DNA from: Pseudomonadota bacterium
GTDB taxonomy: Bacteria; Pseudomonadota; Gammaproteobacteria; Pseudomonadales; Azotimanducaceae
DNA: 36,129 nucleotides
Reading direction: 5' to 3'
Assembly (NCBI GenBank): GCA_009936775.1
Contig: JAACDW010000025.1
Location: 1-36,129 of the forward strand
In this document: positions 8,084-16,975 of the stretch, in pieces
Numbering within the stretch: position 1 is the first letter of the stretch
How the letters are laid out: every line of letters begins with the position of its first letter
The notes under the pieces: generated by a model
The model's database searches: none
The model's input: the letters and a program-made list of their open reading frames with translations, nothing else
Told to the model about the DNA's origin: nothing
Program-made: the position numbers and the translations under genes

Positions 8084-8344
8084 TTAGCGCTTCAAAACCT
8101 TGAGAAGTTCCTCGACTTTCGCATCGAAGTCGTCTGTTGCGGCTAATGACCCGCGAACGCAGGCGTTCAGGTGGGTCTCAAGAACCTTTCCCTCTACCGT
8201 TGAAAGTGCCTTCCTGATCGCCTTAAGTTGATTGAGGACGTCGACACAGTACTTTTCTTCTTCAATCATCTTTGCGACGCCGCGGACTTGGCCTTCGATA
8301 CGCCGCATATTGGGCAGCAACTGAGTATGGTTGGGGTGTTTCAT
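8084..8344 (-). CDS. Metal-sensing CsoR/RcnR-family (DUF156) transcriptional regulator
   Basis: MKHPNHTQLLPNMRRIEGQVRGVAKMIEEEKYCVDVLNQLKAIRKAL...VLETHLNACV. Cys...His-x3-Cys ligand pattern. Start trimmed from the 190-aa ORF. Confidence 0.9.
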   Translation of the reverse strand: MKHPNHTQLLPNMRRIEGQVRGVAKMIEEEKYCVDVLNQLKAIRKALSTVEGKVLETHLNACVRGSLAATDDFDAKVEELLKVLKR

Positions 8345-8346
8345 AG

Positions 8347-8727
8347 TCAAAAAACTCGTGGAACGATGTAGGTAAACACAGTGGCAAAGCAAAACAGACC
8401 CACCGAGCCAAAGTAAATGTAACGCCCGCGCTGCCTCGTTTTCAAACATGCGCGCCCAAGCTCCGGGTCTGCCGGGCAGGGCATGCGCGCAGTCTTGTAG
8501 TTTAGCCAGCCTGCCAGCGTAATGCCCGCGAGTGCAGCCAAGGAAATCGCTACTTTGTGTTGAGAAAGCGTGATCAAAAACGGAAATACGGTCAACAAAC
8601 TGGCGAAGCTCGCGCCAGCCCCGAGTACGACAAACAACGAGGGTAACGCGCAGCAAATGAGCGTTGAAGACGAGGCAAAAAGAGAAAAATAGTTGGCGGT
8701 CTTGGTGTTGACTGTACTGGCGTTCAT
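8347..8727 (-). CDS. Small membrane protein, MerT-like (putative heavy-metal transport)
   Basis: Several hydrophobic helices, 'STLICCALPSLFVVLGAGASFASLL' resembling the MerT CC-P motif; located between an HMA-domain gene and the regulator. Confidence 0.6.
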   Translation of the reverse strand: MNASTVNTKTANYFSLFASSSTLICCALPSLFVVLGAGASFASLLTVFPFLITLSQHKVAISLAALAGITLAGWLNYKTARMPCPADPELGRACLKTRQRGRYIYFGSVGLFCFATVFTYIVPRVF

Positions 8728-9113
8728 ATTTTCTTTACCAGCACGTCGGTAACGTTTTGACCGTTGGCCAAGATTTTTTTCTCAATATCCTGCCGGTCGA
8801 CCAGAGCGTCAGGCGTATAGGCGATTAGCACTTGGCCATTGCCCAAATCTACATCGATTTTGGTTACCGTTTTGTCGCGCTTAAAGGTTTTTTCTATGCC
8901 TCTCGCGCAGAAATCGCAGACCATGCCTAACACGCTAACGACGGCAATTTGAGCGCTGCCCAGGCCGTTTGTAAATTGGTTAAGCCGGGGCTCATCGAAC
9001 TCGACCTGTTGGCCACTGATCTGATGTTGGTGTGTTGCATGGTCGTGTTGGTCGGCGATTTCCGCGAACCCTGGCGCAGCAACAAGTAACAGTATAAGTG
9101 ATAGTTTATGCAT
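8724..9113 (-). CDS. Secreted heavy-metal-associated (HMA/MerP-like) domain protein
   Basis: Signal peptide 'MHKLSLILLLVAAPGFA'; HMA core 'VVSVLGMVCDFCARGIEKTFKRDKTVTKIDVDLGNGQVLI' with CxxC. Confidence 0.8.
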   Translation of the reverse strand: MHKLSLILLLVAAPGFAEIADQHDHATHQHQISGQQVEFDEPRLNQFTNGLGSAQIAVVSVLGMVCDFCARGIEKTFKRDKTVTKIDVDLGNGQVLIAYTPDALVDRQDIEKKILANGQNVTDVLVKKI

Positions 9114-10160: not shown

Positions 10161-12194
10161 TTGAATAAAATTTTGTTGCTTGTGCCTTGGATCATTTGCC
10201 TCGCCGTGGCCTGCGGTGGCGGTTCATCAGCTCCCACGGTGCCGCCTTTATTTGTGCCGCCTCCAGCTGGGTCTACGGGCCTATGGATAACCGGTAGCGA
10301 TGGAGATGGCTTGGTTGAGTACATTGCCAAGTTGAGTCGAGAGTCTGCCGCTAGAAACGCGTTTGGCGAACCGCTGGCGCTCGAAGCGGCGCCCGCAGCG
10401 GATGCGGTTGGTGGCACATTCTCCGGTACCTATACGTTGCAAGCCGAGGTAGATGAACACGACATTGTGAAATACGACGGCTCCACACTGGCAATTGCCC
10501 CGAGTCGCAGTGGCTGCTGCTTTGTTGTAGATACCTTCGCGCTGGAAGTTGATGAAGCCATGCAGACGCCAACTCCGTTGGAGTCGCAAATCAGGCTATT
10601 TACCACTGACGCGGTTGCCGGTAGCGCGAGACAGGCTGGCAGCATTGCCCTGCCCGAGGGCATATCGGCAGAAGGCATTTACTTAAATGACAACTCGTTG
10701 CAGGCGCTGCTGTCGACCTCTTGGTGGGGGTCTTTTGGTGAGCGGTTTACAGATCCTTTTTATTGGCGGGAGCAGACGGTAAGGCTTCAGTCCTACGATA
10801 TTACTAATCTGGATTCGCCGAGCTTGGTCAGCGAACTGCGCATTGAGGGCGGTTTGGTGGCTTCGCGCCGAGCGGGTGATGAGGTGTATCTTATTACCCG
10901 ACACACGCCAAATATTGATGGTCTTATCGCTTACCCCCAGACCGCGGCGCAAATTGCCAATAACCAAACGGCTTTGGCGGCTGTATCCGAGTCGAGTGTG
11001 CTGCCGCAAATCGTCATAGACGATGTGCCCATCACACCGTTCTCACTCGATGACTGCTACCGGGTTGACCAAGAGCACCCGCTGGCGGCCGATTTACCTG
11101 CCGATTCGGTTTTGACAACGCTGCTCACTGTGTCTGCATCGAGCGGCGAGATCCTGCGATCAGCCTGCATTTTGGAACCCGTCGGTGGCGTGTACGTGAG
11201 CAATGACAGCATCGCGTTGACCTATGTCCGTTGGGATGTCGAGTCTGCGACGACACTGGTGCATCTGCTGGATCGGCAGACATATGACTATCTTGGCTCA
11301 GAGGAGGTCCAAGGGGCGCTCTACTCAGGTGGTAACAACGACTTTCGCATCAGCGAGCACGAGGGTGTTCTGCGGCTGGTGACAACCGAGCGGACTGACA
11401 ACCCCGAGGATCAGTTTCAGCACCGCTTGTTTACGCTTCGGCCGGAAGCAGCGGCGCCCGAGCTTGAGGTATTGGGCGTGCTAGGCGATGCCCCGTCGGA
11501 GCGTATCGGTAAGGTTAACGAGGATCTTTACGGCGTCAGATTTACCGGGTCCCGGGCCTACCTCGTGACGTTCGAGCGTATCGATCCGCTCTATGTGGTC
11601 GATCTCTCCGAGCCAATGTCACCGACTATTGTGGGTGAGCTAGAGGTGCCTGGCTTTTCTGATCTGCTGCATGAGGTCAACGCTGAATTGCTGCTAGGCC
11701 TTGGCTCCAGCGAGCGTCGCTTCCCCAAGCTAGAGCTATATAATGTGTCCGATGTGAGCAACCCTGAGTCGCTCAGCTGTGTTGAGCTGGGCACCGTGCG
11801 CGCGGCCGGAGCCATGGTATTCGATGGCTGCGATGTGTTGGGGCCTGCTGAGTGGGAATGGAGCTACAGTCCAGCTCAATACAACCGCTACGCATTCACT
11901 TATTTAGCAGGTCAGGACACAGACCGTTTGACTGTGCCTTATTCGGCAGGGGGTAGAGTCGAGGGTGGTTATCAATCTGTCGACCGAGTTGCGCTGTTTG
12001 AACTTACCGATAAGACGACGCCAGCAGATGCGGCGCTAAACTTGGTTGGAGAGGTAGAACTTAACCCCGGCGCTGTAAGCGGTGACACCCGGGTAATCAT
12101 CGATACCGATGCGTTGTACGTGATTGCCCATTCGGACCTTTTGAGCGGTTTTTGGACTAACCCGGAAGCCGTTGCTCCCATCCCGGCGAATTAA
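10161..12194 (+). CDS. Lipoprotein with C-terminal beta-propeller domain (COG4880-type)
   Basis: Lipobox 'ICLAVACGGGSS'; 'EVDEHDIVKYDGSTLAI', 'LRLVTTERTD', 'RIGKVNEDLYGVRFTGSRAYLVTFERIDPLYVVDLSEPMSPTIVGELEVPGFSDLLH'. TTG start with GAGG upstream. Confidence 0.8.
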   Translation: MNKILLLVPWIICLAVACGGGSSAPTVPPLFVPPPAGSTGLWITGSDGDGLVEYIAKLSRESAARNAFGEPLALEAAPAADAVGGTFSGTYTLQAEVDEHDIVKYDGSTLAIAPSRSGCCFVVDTFALEVDEAMQTPTPLESQIRLFTTDAVAGSARQAGSIALPEGISAEGIYLNDNSLQALLSTSWWGSFGERFTDPFYWREQTVRLQSYDITNLDSPSLVSELRIEGGLVASRRAGDEVYLITRHTPNIDGLIAYPQTAAQIANNQTALAAVSESSVLPQIVIDDVPITPFSLDDCYRVDQEHPLAADLPADSVLTTLLTVSASSGEILRSACILEPVGGVYVSNDSIALTYVRWDVESATTLVHLLDRQTYDYLGSEEVQGALYSGGNNDFRISEHEGVLRLVTTERTDNPEDQFQHRLFTLRPEAAAPELEVLGVLGDAPSERIGKVNEDLYGVRFTGSRAYLVTFERIDPLYVVDLSEPMSPTIVGELEVPGFSDLLHEVNAELLLGLGSSERRFPKLELYNVSDVSNPESLSCVELGTVRAAGAMVFDGCDVLGPAEWEWSYSPAQYNRYAFTYLAGQDTDRLTVPYSAGGRVEGGYQSVDRVALFELTDKTTPADAALNLVGEVELNPGAVSGDTRVIIDTDALYVIAHSDLLSGFWTNPEAVAPIPAN

Positions 12195-12292: not shown

Positions 12293-13027
12293 ATGGAGAA
12301 GGTGAGCCTAAAGGGATACATACGTGTGCCGCAGCATCAGTTGGCGGCAACGGAAGCCGAGCTGGAGCGTCATATCGCCCTAACTCGAGCCGAAGCAGGT
12401 TGCTTGTCATTTGCAGTCACTGCAAGCCCCCGTGATCCACTGTGTTTCGATGTGGCTGAAACCTTTGTCAGTACTGAGGCCTTCGCACTGCATCAGCAGC
12501 GCGCGCAAAGCAGTGCTTGGGGTGCCCTCACTCGGGATTTCCAGCGTCACTATGAGGTCAGTGGTTTAGATCCCGTAGCAGCCAGTAATGCCCAATACAT
12601 GCTGCAAGCCTTGAAGCTGGCCGACGCGGCAGGTGCAGCCGGTGAGGTGCCTGTCGGCGCTGTTTTAGTGCGCGATGACGAGGTGATCGGGCAGGGCTTT
12701 AACCAGCCGATTGCAGGCTGTGATCCAACAGCTCACGCGGAGATTGTCGCCTTGCGTCAGGGGGCACAGGATCAGCGCAATTACCGCCTGCCGGGCAGTG
12801 TGCTATATGTAACCATCGAACCCTGTTTGATGTGTGTTGGCGCCCTTGTGCACGCGCGCGTCGGGCGCGTGGTCTTTGGAGCACGGGAGCCGAAAGCCGG
12901 TGCGCTGTTGAGCCACTCATGGATTGATCAGCACCCCACAAATCATCGCTTCGAAGTGACCGGCGGCGTGCTCAGTGATCTGTGTGCCAGTCGCATGAGT
13001 GAGTTCTTTGCCGCCAAGCGACGTTGA
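12293..13027 (+). CDS. tadA: Fusion: N-terminal antibiotic biosynthesis monooxygenase (ABM)-like domain plus C-terminal tRNA(adenine34) deaminase
   Basis: Residues ~5-90 'GYIRVPQHQLAATEAELERHIALTRAEAGCLSF...SAWGALTRDFQRHYEV' are ABM-like. C-terminal 'YMLQALKLADAAGAAGEVPVGAVLV...DPTAHAEIVALRQG...YVTIEPCLMCVGALVHARVGRVVFGAREPKAGA' is TadA. Confidence 0.9.
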   Translation: MEKVSLKGYIRVPQHQLAATEAELERHIALTRAEAGCLSFAVTASPRDPLCFDVAETFVSTEAFALHQQRAQSSAWGALTRDFQRHYEVSGLDPVAASNAQYMLQALKLADAAGAAGEVPVGAVLVRDDEVIGQGFNQPIAGCDPTAHAEIVALRQGAQDQRNYRLPGSVLYVTIEPCLMCVGALVHARVGRVVFGAREPKAGALLSHSWIDQHPTNHRFEVTGGVLSDLCASRMSEFFAAKRR

Positions 13028-13108: not shown

Positions 13109-16100
13109 TTGAATGTGACTCCCAACTCTGTGCCGCCCCTGCTCCTTGATGGTCCCGCGGCGTTGTCAGTTTTCTCTCTCGCCAAAATTCAGACCAACGT
13201 ACCTGAGGTGGTTTACGCCGAATTCGTTCACTTGCTTCAGTTGCAGGAAGACCTAAGCGCCGAGCAGCTGCAACAGGTGCAACAGCTGCTGCATTATGGG
13301 CCAACCCAAGAATTGCCAGCGCGGCGGGGTGTTCGCGCGCTAACTGTGCTGCCTCGTAGTGGCACCATTTCAGCTTGGTCGAGTAAGGCTACCGACATTT
13401 TTGCACGTTGCGGTTTGCGCACGGTGCTGCGGGTAGAGCGGGGAGTGCGATGGTTTGTTGCAGATGGTGCCGATTCTGCCGGTTCTGCCAATGGGGCAAG
13501 CGTGAACCAGTCCGCTTTGTATGACCGCATGACCGAAGAATGCTGGACTGACGAATCTTTTAACGACTGGTTTTACCAGGCTGAACCCAAGCCAATGGCT
13601 CACGTGGCGTTGCTGGAAGACGGCTTGCCGGCTCTGCAGGAGGCCAATTCGCGACTTGGCTTGGCCCTTTCCGATGATGAATTTGACTACCTGCATAACG
13701 CCTATGTGGCTCTTGCGCGCAATCCTACTGATGTGGAACTTATGATGTTTGCGCAGGCGAATTCTGAGCACTCTCGACATAAGATTTTTAACGCCGACTG
13801 GATCGTCGACCAACAACCGCAAAGTCGCTCCCTATTCAGTATGATTCGTAACACGCATCGCCAGATCAATGGCGAAGGGATACTCAGCGCCTATAGCGAT
13901 AACGCAGCGGTGATAGCAGGGCCCCAGGCAGATCGCTTATGGGTCGATGGCAGCTCCCAGCGTTACGAGTTTGCGCCAGAACTCGCGCACATATTGATGA
14001 AGGTCGAAACTCACAATCACCCCACCGCCATTGCGCCGTTTGCGGGTGCGGCAACCGGTGCCGGCGGTGAAATTCGAGATGAGGGGGCGGTGGGGCGTGG
14101 CTCGAAACCAAAGGCGGGACTGACTGGTTTTACGACGTCGCATCTGAACCTGCCCGAGCTACCCCAGCCCTGGGAACTGGCAACGGGAAAACCCGAACAT
14201 ATGGTATCCGCGCTGGATATCATGCTCGAAGGCCCTATTGGCGCAGCCAGCTTCAATAATGAATTCGGCCGACCTGCAATTAGCGGTTATTTCCGCACTT
14301 TTGAGTATCAGGCGTCGGCTGACGAGCCGGTGCGGGGTTACCACAAGCCGGTGATGATCGCTGGCGGTGTGGGTAGCGTGCGCGACGACCACGTGCATGC
14401 AAAAGACTTCCCGCAAGCGACAGCGCTCGTCGTGCTGGGCGGCCCCGCGATGTTGATCGGTCTGGGCGGCGGCGCTGCCTCAAGTATGGCGTCTGGCAGC
14501 AGTTCCTCTGATTTGGACTTTGCCTCAGTGCAGCGCGGCAACCCTGAAATGCAGCGGCGCTGCCAAGAAGTCATTGATCGCTGTTGTGCATTAAATGAAG
14601 ACAACCCCATTTTGCTGATCCACGACGTTGGTGCAGGTGGTTTGTCCAATGCGCTGCCAGAGCTGATTCATGACGCCCATACGGGCGGGCGCATTGAACT
14701 GCGTGACGTGCTCAGCGCGGATGCCGGTATGAGTCCGCTGGAAATTTGGTGCAATGAAGCTCAAGAGCGTTATGTGCTGGGAATAGCAGCGCAACAGCTG
14801 CAGGCATTTGAGGCTATCTGCGGTCGCGAGCGCTGCCCCTACGCAGTGGTAGGCCGCTCTGCCAGTGGCGGCCAGTTGCAGGTAACCGATGCTCACTTCG
14901 GCAACAGCCCGGTGAATTTGCCGCTGGACGTGCTGCTGGGCAATACACCTAAAATGACACGCACCTTCGATCGACAAGTAAAAGCTCTGCCTGCGCTGGC
15001 ACTGGCTGACATAGTGCTCGACCAAGCCATCGATCGCGTGCTGCATTTGCCAGCAGTAGCCAGTAAACAGTTTTTGATCACCATTGGCGATCGCAGCATA
15101 ACGGGCATGGTGGCGACCCAACCCATGATCGGGCCCTGGCAGGTGCCGGTAGCCGATGCAGCGGTCACTTTATCTGGTTACCGCACCTATGCAGGTGAGG
15201 CCTTTGCCATGGGCGAGCGCAGTCCGCTGGCGCTAATAAACCCCAGTGCTGCCGCTCGCATGGCGGTGGCCGAAGCGCTAACAAATATTGTCAGCGCAGA
15301 TATCGAATCGTTGGCACGGGTAGTGCTCTCTGCCAACTGGATGGCGGCAGCGGGCAGCAATACCGAGGAACAGGCACTGTTCGATGCGGTAGCCGCCGTC
15401 GGCGAGGAATTTTGCCCCGCCTTGGGTATCGCCATTCCCGTTGGCAAGGATTCTTTGTCCATGCAAACCCGCTGGCAGGACGAGCAAGGCGCGAAAGCCG
15501 TGGTGTCGCCGGTGACGCTTGTGGTGTCAAGTTTTGCCCCCGTAATCGATACCCGTCTGACGGTGACCCCTGAACTGCAGCTGCAACAGGACAGCGTGCT
15601 GGTGCTGCTCGATTTGGGCGCTCAGCGACTCGGTGGTAGCGCGCTAGCGCAGGTGTACGGCCAACTGGGTAACGCGGCCCCAGATGTGGAAGACCCTCAA
15701 GCTCTGAAAGCTCTGCTCAATCTTGCCATTGAGTGGAAGCGTCAGGGCAAAATTTTAGCCATGCACGACCGCTCAGATGGTGGGCTGTTGACAACCTTGC
15801 TGGAAATGGCTTTCGCCGGTCGCCTTGGGCTGAACATCGATCTGCCGAGAGATGCAGCAGTGCTGCCTACTTTGTTTAATGAAGAAATTGGCCTAGTACT
15901 GCAGATCGCGAAGACAGATTTGCCTGCCCTGCGCGCTGCCGCTCCCGCTGGGTGCAGTGTGGTGGCGCAGATTCGCAGTGACGAACAAGTCGTCATCCTA
16001 CAGGCCGGGCAGCAGCTGTACGCCGCCTCGCGTGGCGTTCTGCAGCAGCAATGGGCGCAAACCAGTTATGTGATGCAGCGTCGGCGCGATTCCACAGCAT

Positions 16101-16975
16101 GCGCTGACGAAGAGTTTGCCAGTGTTATGACGAGTCGCGACGACAATCCCGGGCTCAATGCGCGGCTCAGCTTCGATCCAAAGCAAATTCCTGCGGTCGT
16201 TGGCTTGACCTCACCGAGCATCGCGATTCTGCGCGAGCAAGGGGTCAATGGGCAGATCGAAATGGCTGCAGCTTTTAGTGCGGCGGGCTTCGACTGCGTT
16301 GACGTGCATATGACAGACCTAGTTTCCGGCTCGCGTAAGTTGACAGACTTTCAGGCCTTCGCCGCCTGTGGTGGCTTTTCCTATGGCGACGTACTTGGGG
16401 CTGGTGGTGGTTGGGCGAAAAGCGTGCTGTTCGACACAAGGCTGCGCGAACAGTTTGCCGAGTTCTTTGCCGCTGACACCCTTGCGCTGGGTATTTGCAA
16501 CGGCTGCCAAATGCTTTCCCAGCTGCGGATGCTTATCCCCGAAGCCGAGCATTGGCCGACTTTTGTGCGCAACCGCAGCGAGCAGTTTGAGGGCCGTACC
16601 GTAATGGTGCGCATAGAAGACGGGAGCAGCCCCTGGCTGGCCGATATGGCCGGCAGTGTAATGCCTGTGGCGGTAGCCCACGGCGAGGGACGCCCGGAGC
16701 TTAGTAACGCCGCCGCAGCAGCACTTGTACAGCGACAGCAGGTTGCTCTGCGTTACGTGGATGCAGGCCACAATGTGGCCGCCTTATACCCGGATAACCC
16801 CAACGGTGCCCCGGGCGGATTGGCAGGTCTTACTGCAGCACAGGGTCGGGTGCTGGCCATGATGCCTCATCCCGAGCGTGTCTACCGCAGCATTCAAAAT
16901 GTGTGGAGTGATCCGGCTTGGCAGGAAAATGGGCCTTGGCTGCGTTTGTTCCGTAACGCTCGCCGCCTGTTTTAG
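13109..16975 (+). CDS. purL: Phosphoribosylformylglycinamidine synthase
   Basis: 1288 aa; '[19 protein letters not shown]', '[40 protein letters not shown]', C-terminal glutaminase '[14 protein letters not shown]', '[10 protein letters not shown]'. Confidence 0.98.

Follow-up and report, generated by a model that had tools for sequence, protein, structure and literature searches.

An in-frame fusion of an ABM domain to the tRNA adenosine-34 deaminase TadA, conserved across one bacterial clade

TadA is usually a small enzyme of one domain, essential in E. coli. In B. subtilis it is dispensable (PMC10454642). Among eukaryotes, ADAT3 has the same order of domains as the bacterial protein described here, a ferredoxin-like domain at the N-terminus and then a deaminase domain of the TadA type, but ADAT3 lacks catalytic activity and works as the partner of ADAT2, and its N-domain binds tRNA via basic surfaces (PMC8216470); archaeal CDAT8 has been described alongside it (PMC8216470). 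The ABM domain, for which 315 Pfam architectures have been counted (PMC12274486), is known to fuse promiscuously, and is found in frame with enzymes in the ABM-CoA ligase and ABM-glyoxalase (PMC12274486), ABM-polyketide cyclase (PMC6689052) and ABM-APH kinase fusions. Non-catalytic, chaperone-like roles of ABM proteins also have precedent (PMC6689052). The joining to TadA adds a further ABM partner, which, unlike those of the other ABM-enzyme fusions, is a core translation enzyme. Our literature search, with most subscription journals outside its reach, found no paper describing an ABM-TadA fusion.

Additional ABM fusions were seen among the loci that we fetched. In two of them (L071:3998-5224 and L054:4001-5236), a kinase domain of the aminoglycoside/hydroxyurea type (APH_6_hur, PF04655) is joined in frame to an ABM of the same subfamily as that of the ABM-TadA fusion, and a third locus (L075:3917-5218) contains a long frame of the same kind; no ATG lies between the domains of the ABM-kinase loci in the stretch checked. 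A Plantibacter locus (L119:3947-5341) has ABM in one frame with the epoxide hydrolase N-terminal domain PF06441, a less certain fusion because an in-frame ATG stands between the domains.

Architecture of the fusion gene

The window, that is, the whole 36,129-nucleotide stretch of DNA analysed, contains a single open reading frame in which ABM is followed by a complete TadA with HAE and PCxxC motifs. Pfam, NCBIfam and the motifs agree on this assignment, which had been made in a preliminary description from the sequence. The features are given below.

12293..13027, + strand: ABM-TadA fusion gene, an uninterrupted ORF of 244 amino acids with full-length homologues in 7 species (62-68% identity)
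12314..12520, + strand: ABM domain PF03992, residues 8-76 (Pfam 32.7 bits against a cut-off of 23.1, E 8.7e-8; fold match to solved ABM structures)
12563..12598, + strand: junction GLDPVAASNAQY, residues 91-102, with coil only at about residues 91-93 and then TadA helix 1, from alignment and model
12584..13021, + strand: TadA, tRNA adenosine-34 deaminase, residues 98-243 (NCBIfam equivalog NF008113, 182.5 bits against a cut-off of 150, E 5e-54)
12599..12601, + strand: internal ATG, Met103, inside TadA helix 1; an unlikely start, as TadA homology begins 4-9 residues earlier
12734..12742, + strand: HAE catalytic/zinc motif of TadA, residues 148-150, from alignment to E. coli TadA
12821..12835, + strand: PCLMC zinc motif of TadA (PCxxC), residues 177-181, from alignment to E. 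coli TadA
13109..16975, + strand: purL, the neighbouring gene; the tadA-purL order is common to the fused and the inspected non-fused genus members

The exact start could be either ATG 12293 or GTG 12302, a few codons apart, and the homologues open with MVTL. The ABM family residues present in the window protein are H27, E34, G36, E56, H67, R70, S74 and W76. TadA homology indeed starts ahead of the internal ATG at 12599, as had been proposed: the alignment to E. coli TadA (1z3a, E 6.5e-47) runs from residue 94 and the Pfam deaminase families match from residue 99, before Met103. No in-frame ATG, GTG or TTG occurs in the window protein from residue 76 to Met103. The 20 bases before 12599 contain no Shine-Dalgarno match (+0.7 kcal/mol, compared with a random mean of -3.0), in agreement with the earlier remark that a clear ribosome-binding site is lacking there, and the strength of this signal is a poor guide to an internal start because the separate tadA genes also go without it.

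The AlphaFold2 monomer of the whole fusion was predicted confidently (pLDDT 93.9, pTM 0.82), with a linker of about 3 coil residues connecting the final strand of ABM to TadA helix 1. The TadA half resembles solved bacterial TadAs (E. coli 1z3a and S. aureus 2b3j; TM 0.88-0.92 normalised to the solved TadA) in its complete deaminase domain and its HAE and PCxxC motifs, which are invariant in the alignment of all eight fusions, and its gene lies beside purL as in relatives; it differs in the N-terminal ABM domain and in its C-terminus, which stops right at FF..(K/R)R, where most relatives have a further tail. The ABM half alone gave a model with a pLDDT of 96.9, whose top fold matches were 2fb0, 2omo and 1x7v (PA3566), and also LsrG; by sequence, PA3566 is its nearest solved relative (E 2.3e-8). 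It thus shares the beta-alpha-beta-beta-alpha-beta fold of stand-alone ABM proteins (PF03992; PA3566 1x7v, LsrG, 2omo, YgiN and ArqI PA0709) and scores over the Pfam cut-off, but is a member of a HIALTRAEPGC / HQxRxxxSxW subfamily that seems to be uncharacterised, and is joined to a tRNA enzyme. No NCBIfam model names this ABM subfamily, and the PF03992 family is functionally mixed.

Several observations concern the surroundings of the gene. In every fused TadA (13003-13027 in the window), FF..(K/R)R closes the protein, whereas most relatives extend by another 3-19 residues; this tail is also missing in a few non-fused TadAs. Directly upstream of the fusion, positions 10161-12194 (+) encode a protein of 677 aa in which Pfam recognises a Beta_propel domain (PF09826, E 1.5e-75), and in the other fused species the upstream neighbour appears to be different. 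Further upstream, a small cluster at 8084-9113 (-), perhaps a metal-handling operon, comprises a metal-sensitive repressor (PF02583), a protein with an HMA domain (PF00403) and a third protein, of 126 aa, that matches no Pfam family.

Distribution and history of the fusion

A genus search over 40 genomes, 35 of which gave a match, revealed the full-length fusion without stops in 7 further species, so that eight fused species are known including that of the window. The search for the same architecture in relatives, which the preliminary description had suggested as a check, therefore supports its view that the fusion is real. Several of the fused relatives are marine assemblies, including OM182 and K189A clade bacteria (gammaproteobacteria). 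The suggestion that the fusion is lineage-specific likewise held, since it occurs in one clade and was not found in the samples of the order (392 genomes), the class (369) and the phylum (399); the matches listed for these samples were limited to strict E-values (1e-52 to 1e-57), and a distant fusion could have escaped. In addition, a scan of genome contigs with an ABM alignment returned 80 loci, namely 7 fused, 2 with a separate ABM adjoining tadA, and 71 without TadA in the fetched flanks.

The fused copies cluster in the trees of TadA (support 89/64, modest), PurL (98/97) and ABM (98/96), and they stand cleanly apart from the species with adjacent genes, with the ABM tree alone not firmly separating the ABM groups. 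One origin followed by vertical inheritance is therefore the simplest reading of these phylogenies.

Five genus members (G005, G021, G017, G016 and G058) instead carry a separate ABM gene directly upstream of tadA, with a gap of roughly 70-150 bases; in three of the five, ABM and tadA share a reading frame that is interrupted by stops. The separate ABM of G016 has lost otherwise invariant residues and that of G058, close to a contig end, lacks its start, so that both copies may be decaying. Damage of this kind is seen at L014, where the ABM gene upstream of tadA has Tyr in place of the invariant His, among other losses, and at L039:1-350, where the separate ABM gene, close to a contig end, has no start or first strand. 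Between ABM and tadA, the adjacent-gene species share a conserved block, GCTGGCGCTGTTAATATAG, a candidate promoter with an extended -10 look; it was not found before the fused genes with up to five mismatches allowed.

The simplest history would start from an ancestor with the ABM gene just upstream of tadA, in which the stop codon and the intergenic stretch were lost. In the ABM tree, the fused and the adjacent ABMs do not come together, and their joining is not rejected (AU p 0.18); as the two groups are neither united nor firmly kept apart, the order of adjacency first and fusion later is one that we infer.

Constraint on the ABM half and the role of the fused protein

In the closest fused pairs, dN/dS was 0.08-0.13 for ABM and 0.07-0.10 for TadA, whereas the free adjacent genes gave 0.16-0.23 for ABM (few pairs, the higher values involving the possibly decaying G016) and 0.06-0.08 for TadA; most of the more distant pairs were saturated at synonymous sites and were left out. 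The ABM half is thus nearly as constrained as TadA and is under purifying selection. Furthermore, the residues invariant in 71 stand-alone ABMs are all kept in each of the eight fusions; some of these residues belong to the pattern by which the stand-alone proteins had been retrieved, and E56, S74 and R85, together with the nearly invariant W76 and Y87, are conserved ABM residues outside it. The fusion is real, single-copy and conserved across one clade, with both halves intact and under purifying selection.

It is also the only TadA detectable in the window genome, a draft that is 94% complete. When this genome was searched with the fused protein, the only other match was a weak deaminase (E 2e-8), which we take to be RibD-like. 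Since the genome also contains a tRNA-Arg(ACG) gene (G000:C74, found with ARAGORN), the fusion is very likely its working A34 deaminase. We consider it probable that the protein represents the only detectable A34 deaminase of the cell with a permanent ABM domain, two working domains being made as one protein. One transcript would then yield one protein, whose TadA half would carry out the usual editing of A34 in tRNA-Arg(ACG) and whose ABM half would keep a small-molecule pocket function of its own and help hold the homodimer together. A contribution of ABM to assembly is likely; the model, with its short linker and two confidently predicted domains, is compatible with the earlier proposal that the ABM half may alter assembly. 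The advantage would probably lie in co-production and stability rather than in altered editing specificity.

The preliminary description had alternatively offered the ABM domain as a lineage-specific passenger. On such a reading, a neighbouring gene would have been joined by chance and kept only because a stop or frameshift in ABM would remove TadA as well. The single origin is consistent with this idea, nonsense changes would be purged automatically, and ABM is a promiscuous domain, with an APH-type kinase as another partner among the fetched loci. However, the dN/dS values show that missense changes are purged too, and more strongly than in the few free adjacent ABM pairs, and no invariant family residue has been lost from any fusion. 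A decayed passenger is unlikely because the ABM half keeps these residues, folds confidently in the model and is nearly as constrained as TadA. Its low dN/dS might simply stem from a requirement to fold in a way harmless to TadA, and such a folding constraint may explain part of the signal; overall, we regard the passenger explanation as disfavoured and rather improbable.

Regulatory coupling, in which the ABM pocket would bind a small molecule (quinol, aldehyde, heme or similar) and change the activity of the TadA dimer, is possible, and we give it a similarly small chance of being the correct account. The pocket-type residues are fully conserved, the junction is short in the model, and for another ABM protein, ArqI, modification by glyoxal and interaction with a partner enzyme have been described (PMC12274486), but ArqI is a distant ABM relative. 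Guilt by association gave no lead, as the stand-alone ABMs in ten loci had unrelated neighbours, none of them connected with tRNA or purine metabolism. The coupling of redox or quinone chemistry to wobble editing, raised in the preliminary description, is neither favoured nor disfavoured by our results.

It appears still more doubtful that the ferredoxin-like fold of ABM serves as a tRNA-handling domain, helping to bind the tRNA body like the ADAT3 N-domain, which is required for tRNA binding (PMC8216470). The domain order and the fold class are the same, and in Foldseek almost the entire fusion aligns with ADAT3 chains (276-283 columns; 7nz8_B); however, the rmsd over this alignment is 13-16 A, with the domains arranged differently, and no sequence kinship was seen between the ADAT3 N-domain and ABM. 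In addition, the ABM half is acidic rather than basic in seven of the eight fusions (net charge 0 to -8, from sequence charge only). The charge and the arrangement count against ADAT3-like tRNA binding, and the likeness is therefore one of analogy only.

Finally, an artefact of sequencing or assembly, or translation of TadA solely from 12599, is hardly credible: the window comes from a draft assembly of 293 contigs, an internal ATG is present and two-gene relatives exist, but the same open frame in eight divergent species from separate assemblies rules out an indel at the junction, and a start at 12599, which is without sequence support, would cut TadA helix 1.

The fusion of ABM to TadA thus provides a bacterial parallel to ADAT3 in domain order. 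If regulatory coupling were true, wobble inosine would respond to the metabolic state of the cell. A clade whose only detectable TadA has a conserved and constrained extra domain offers a natural test of whether wobble editing can be tied to something else.
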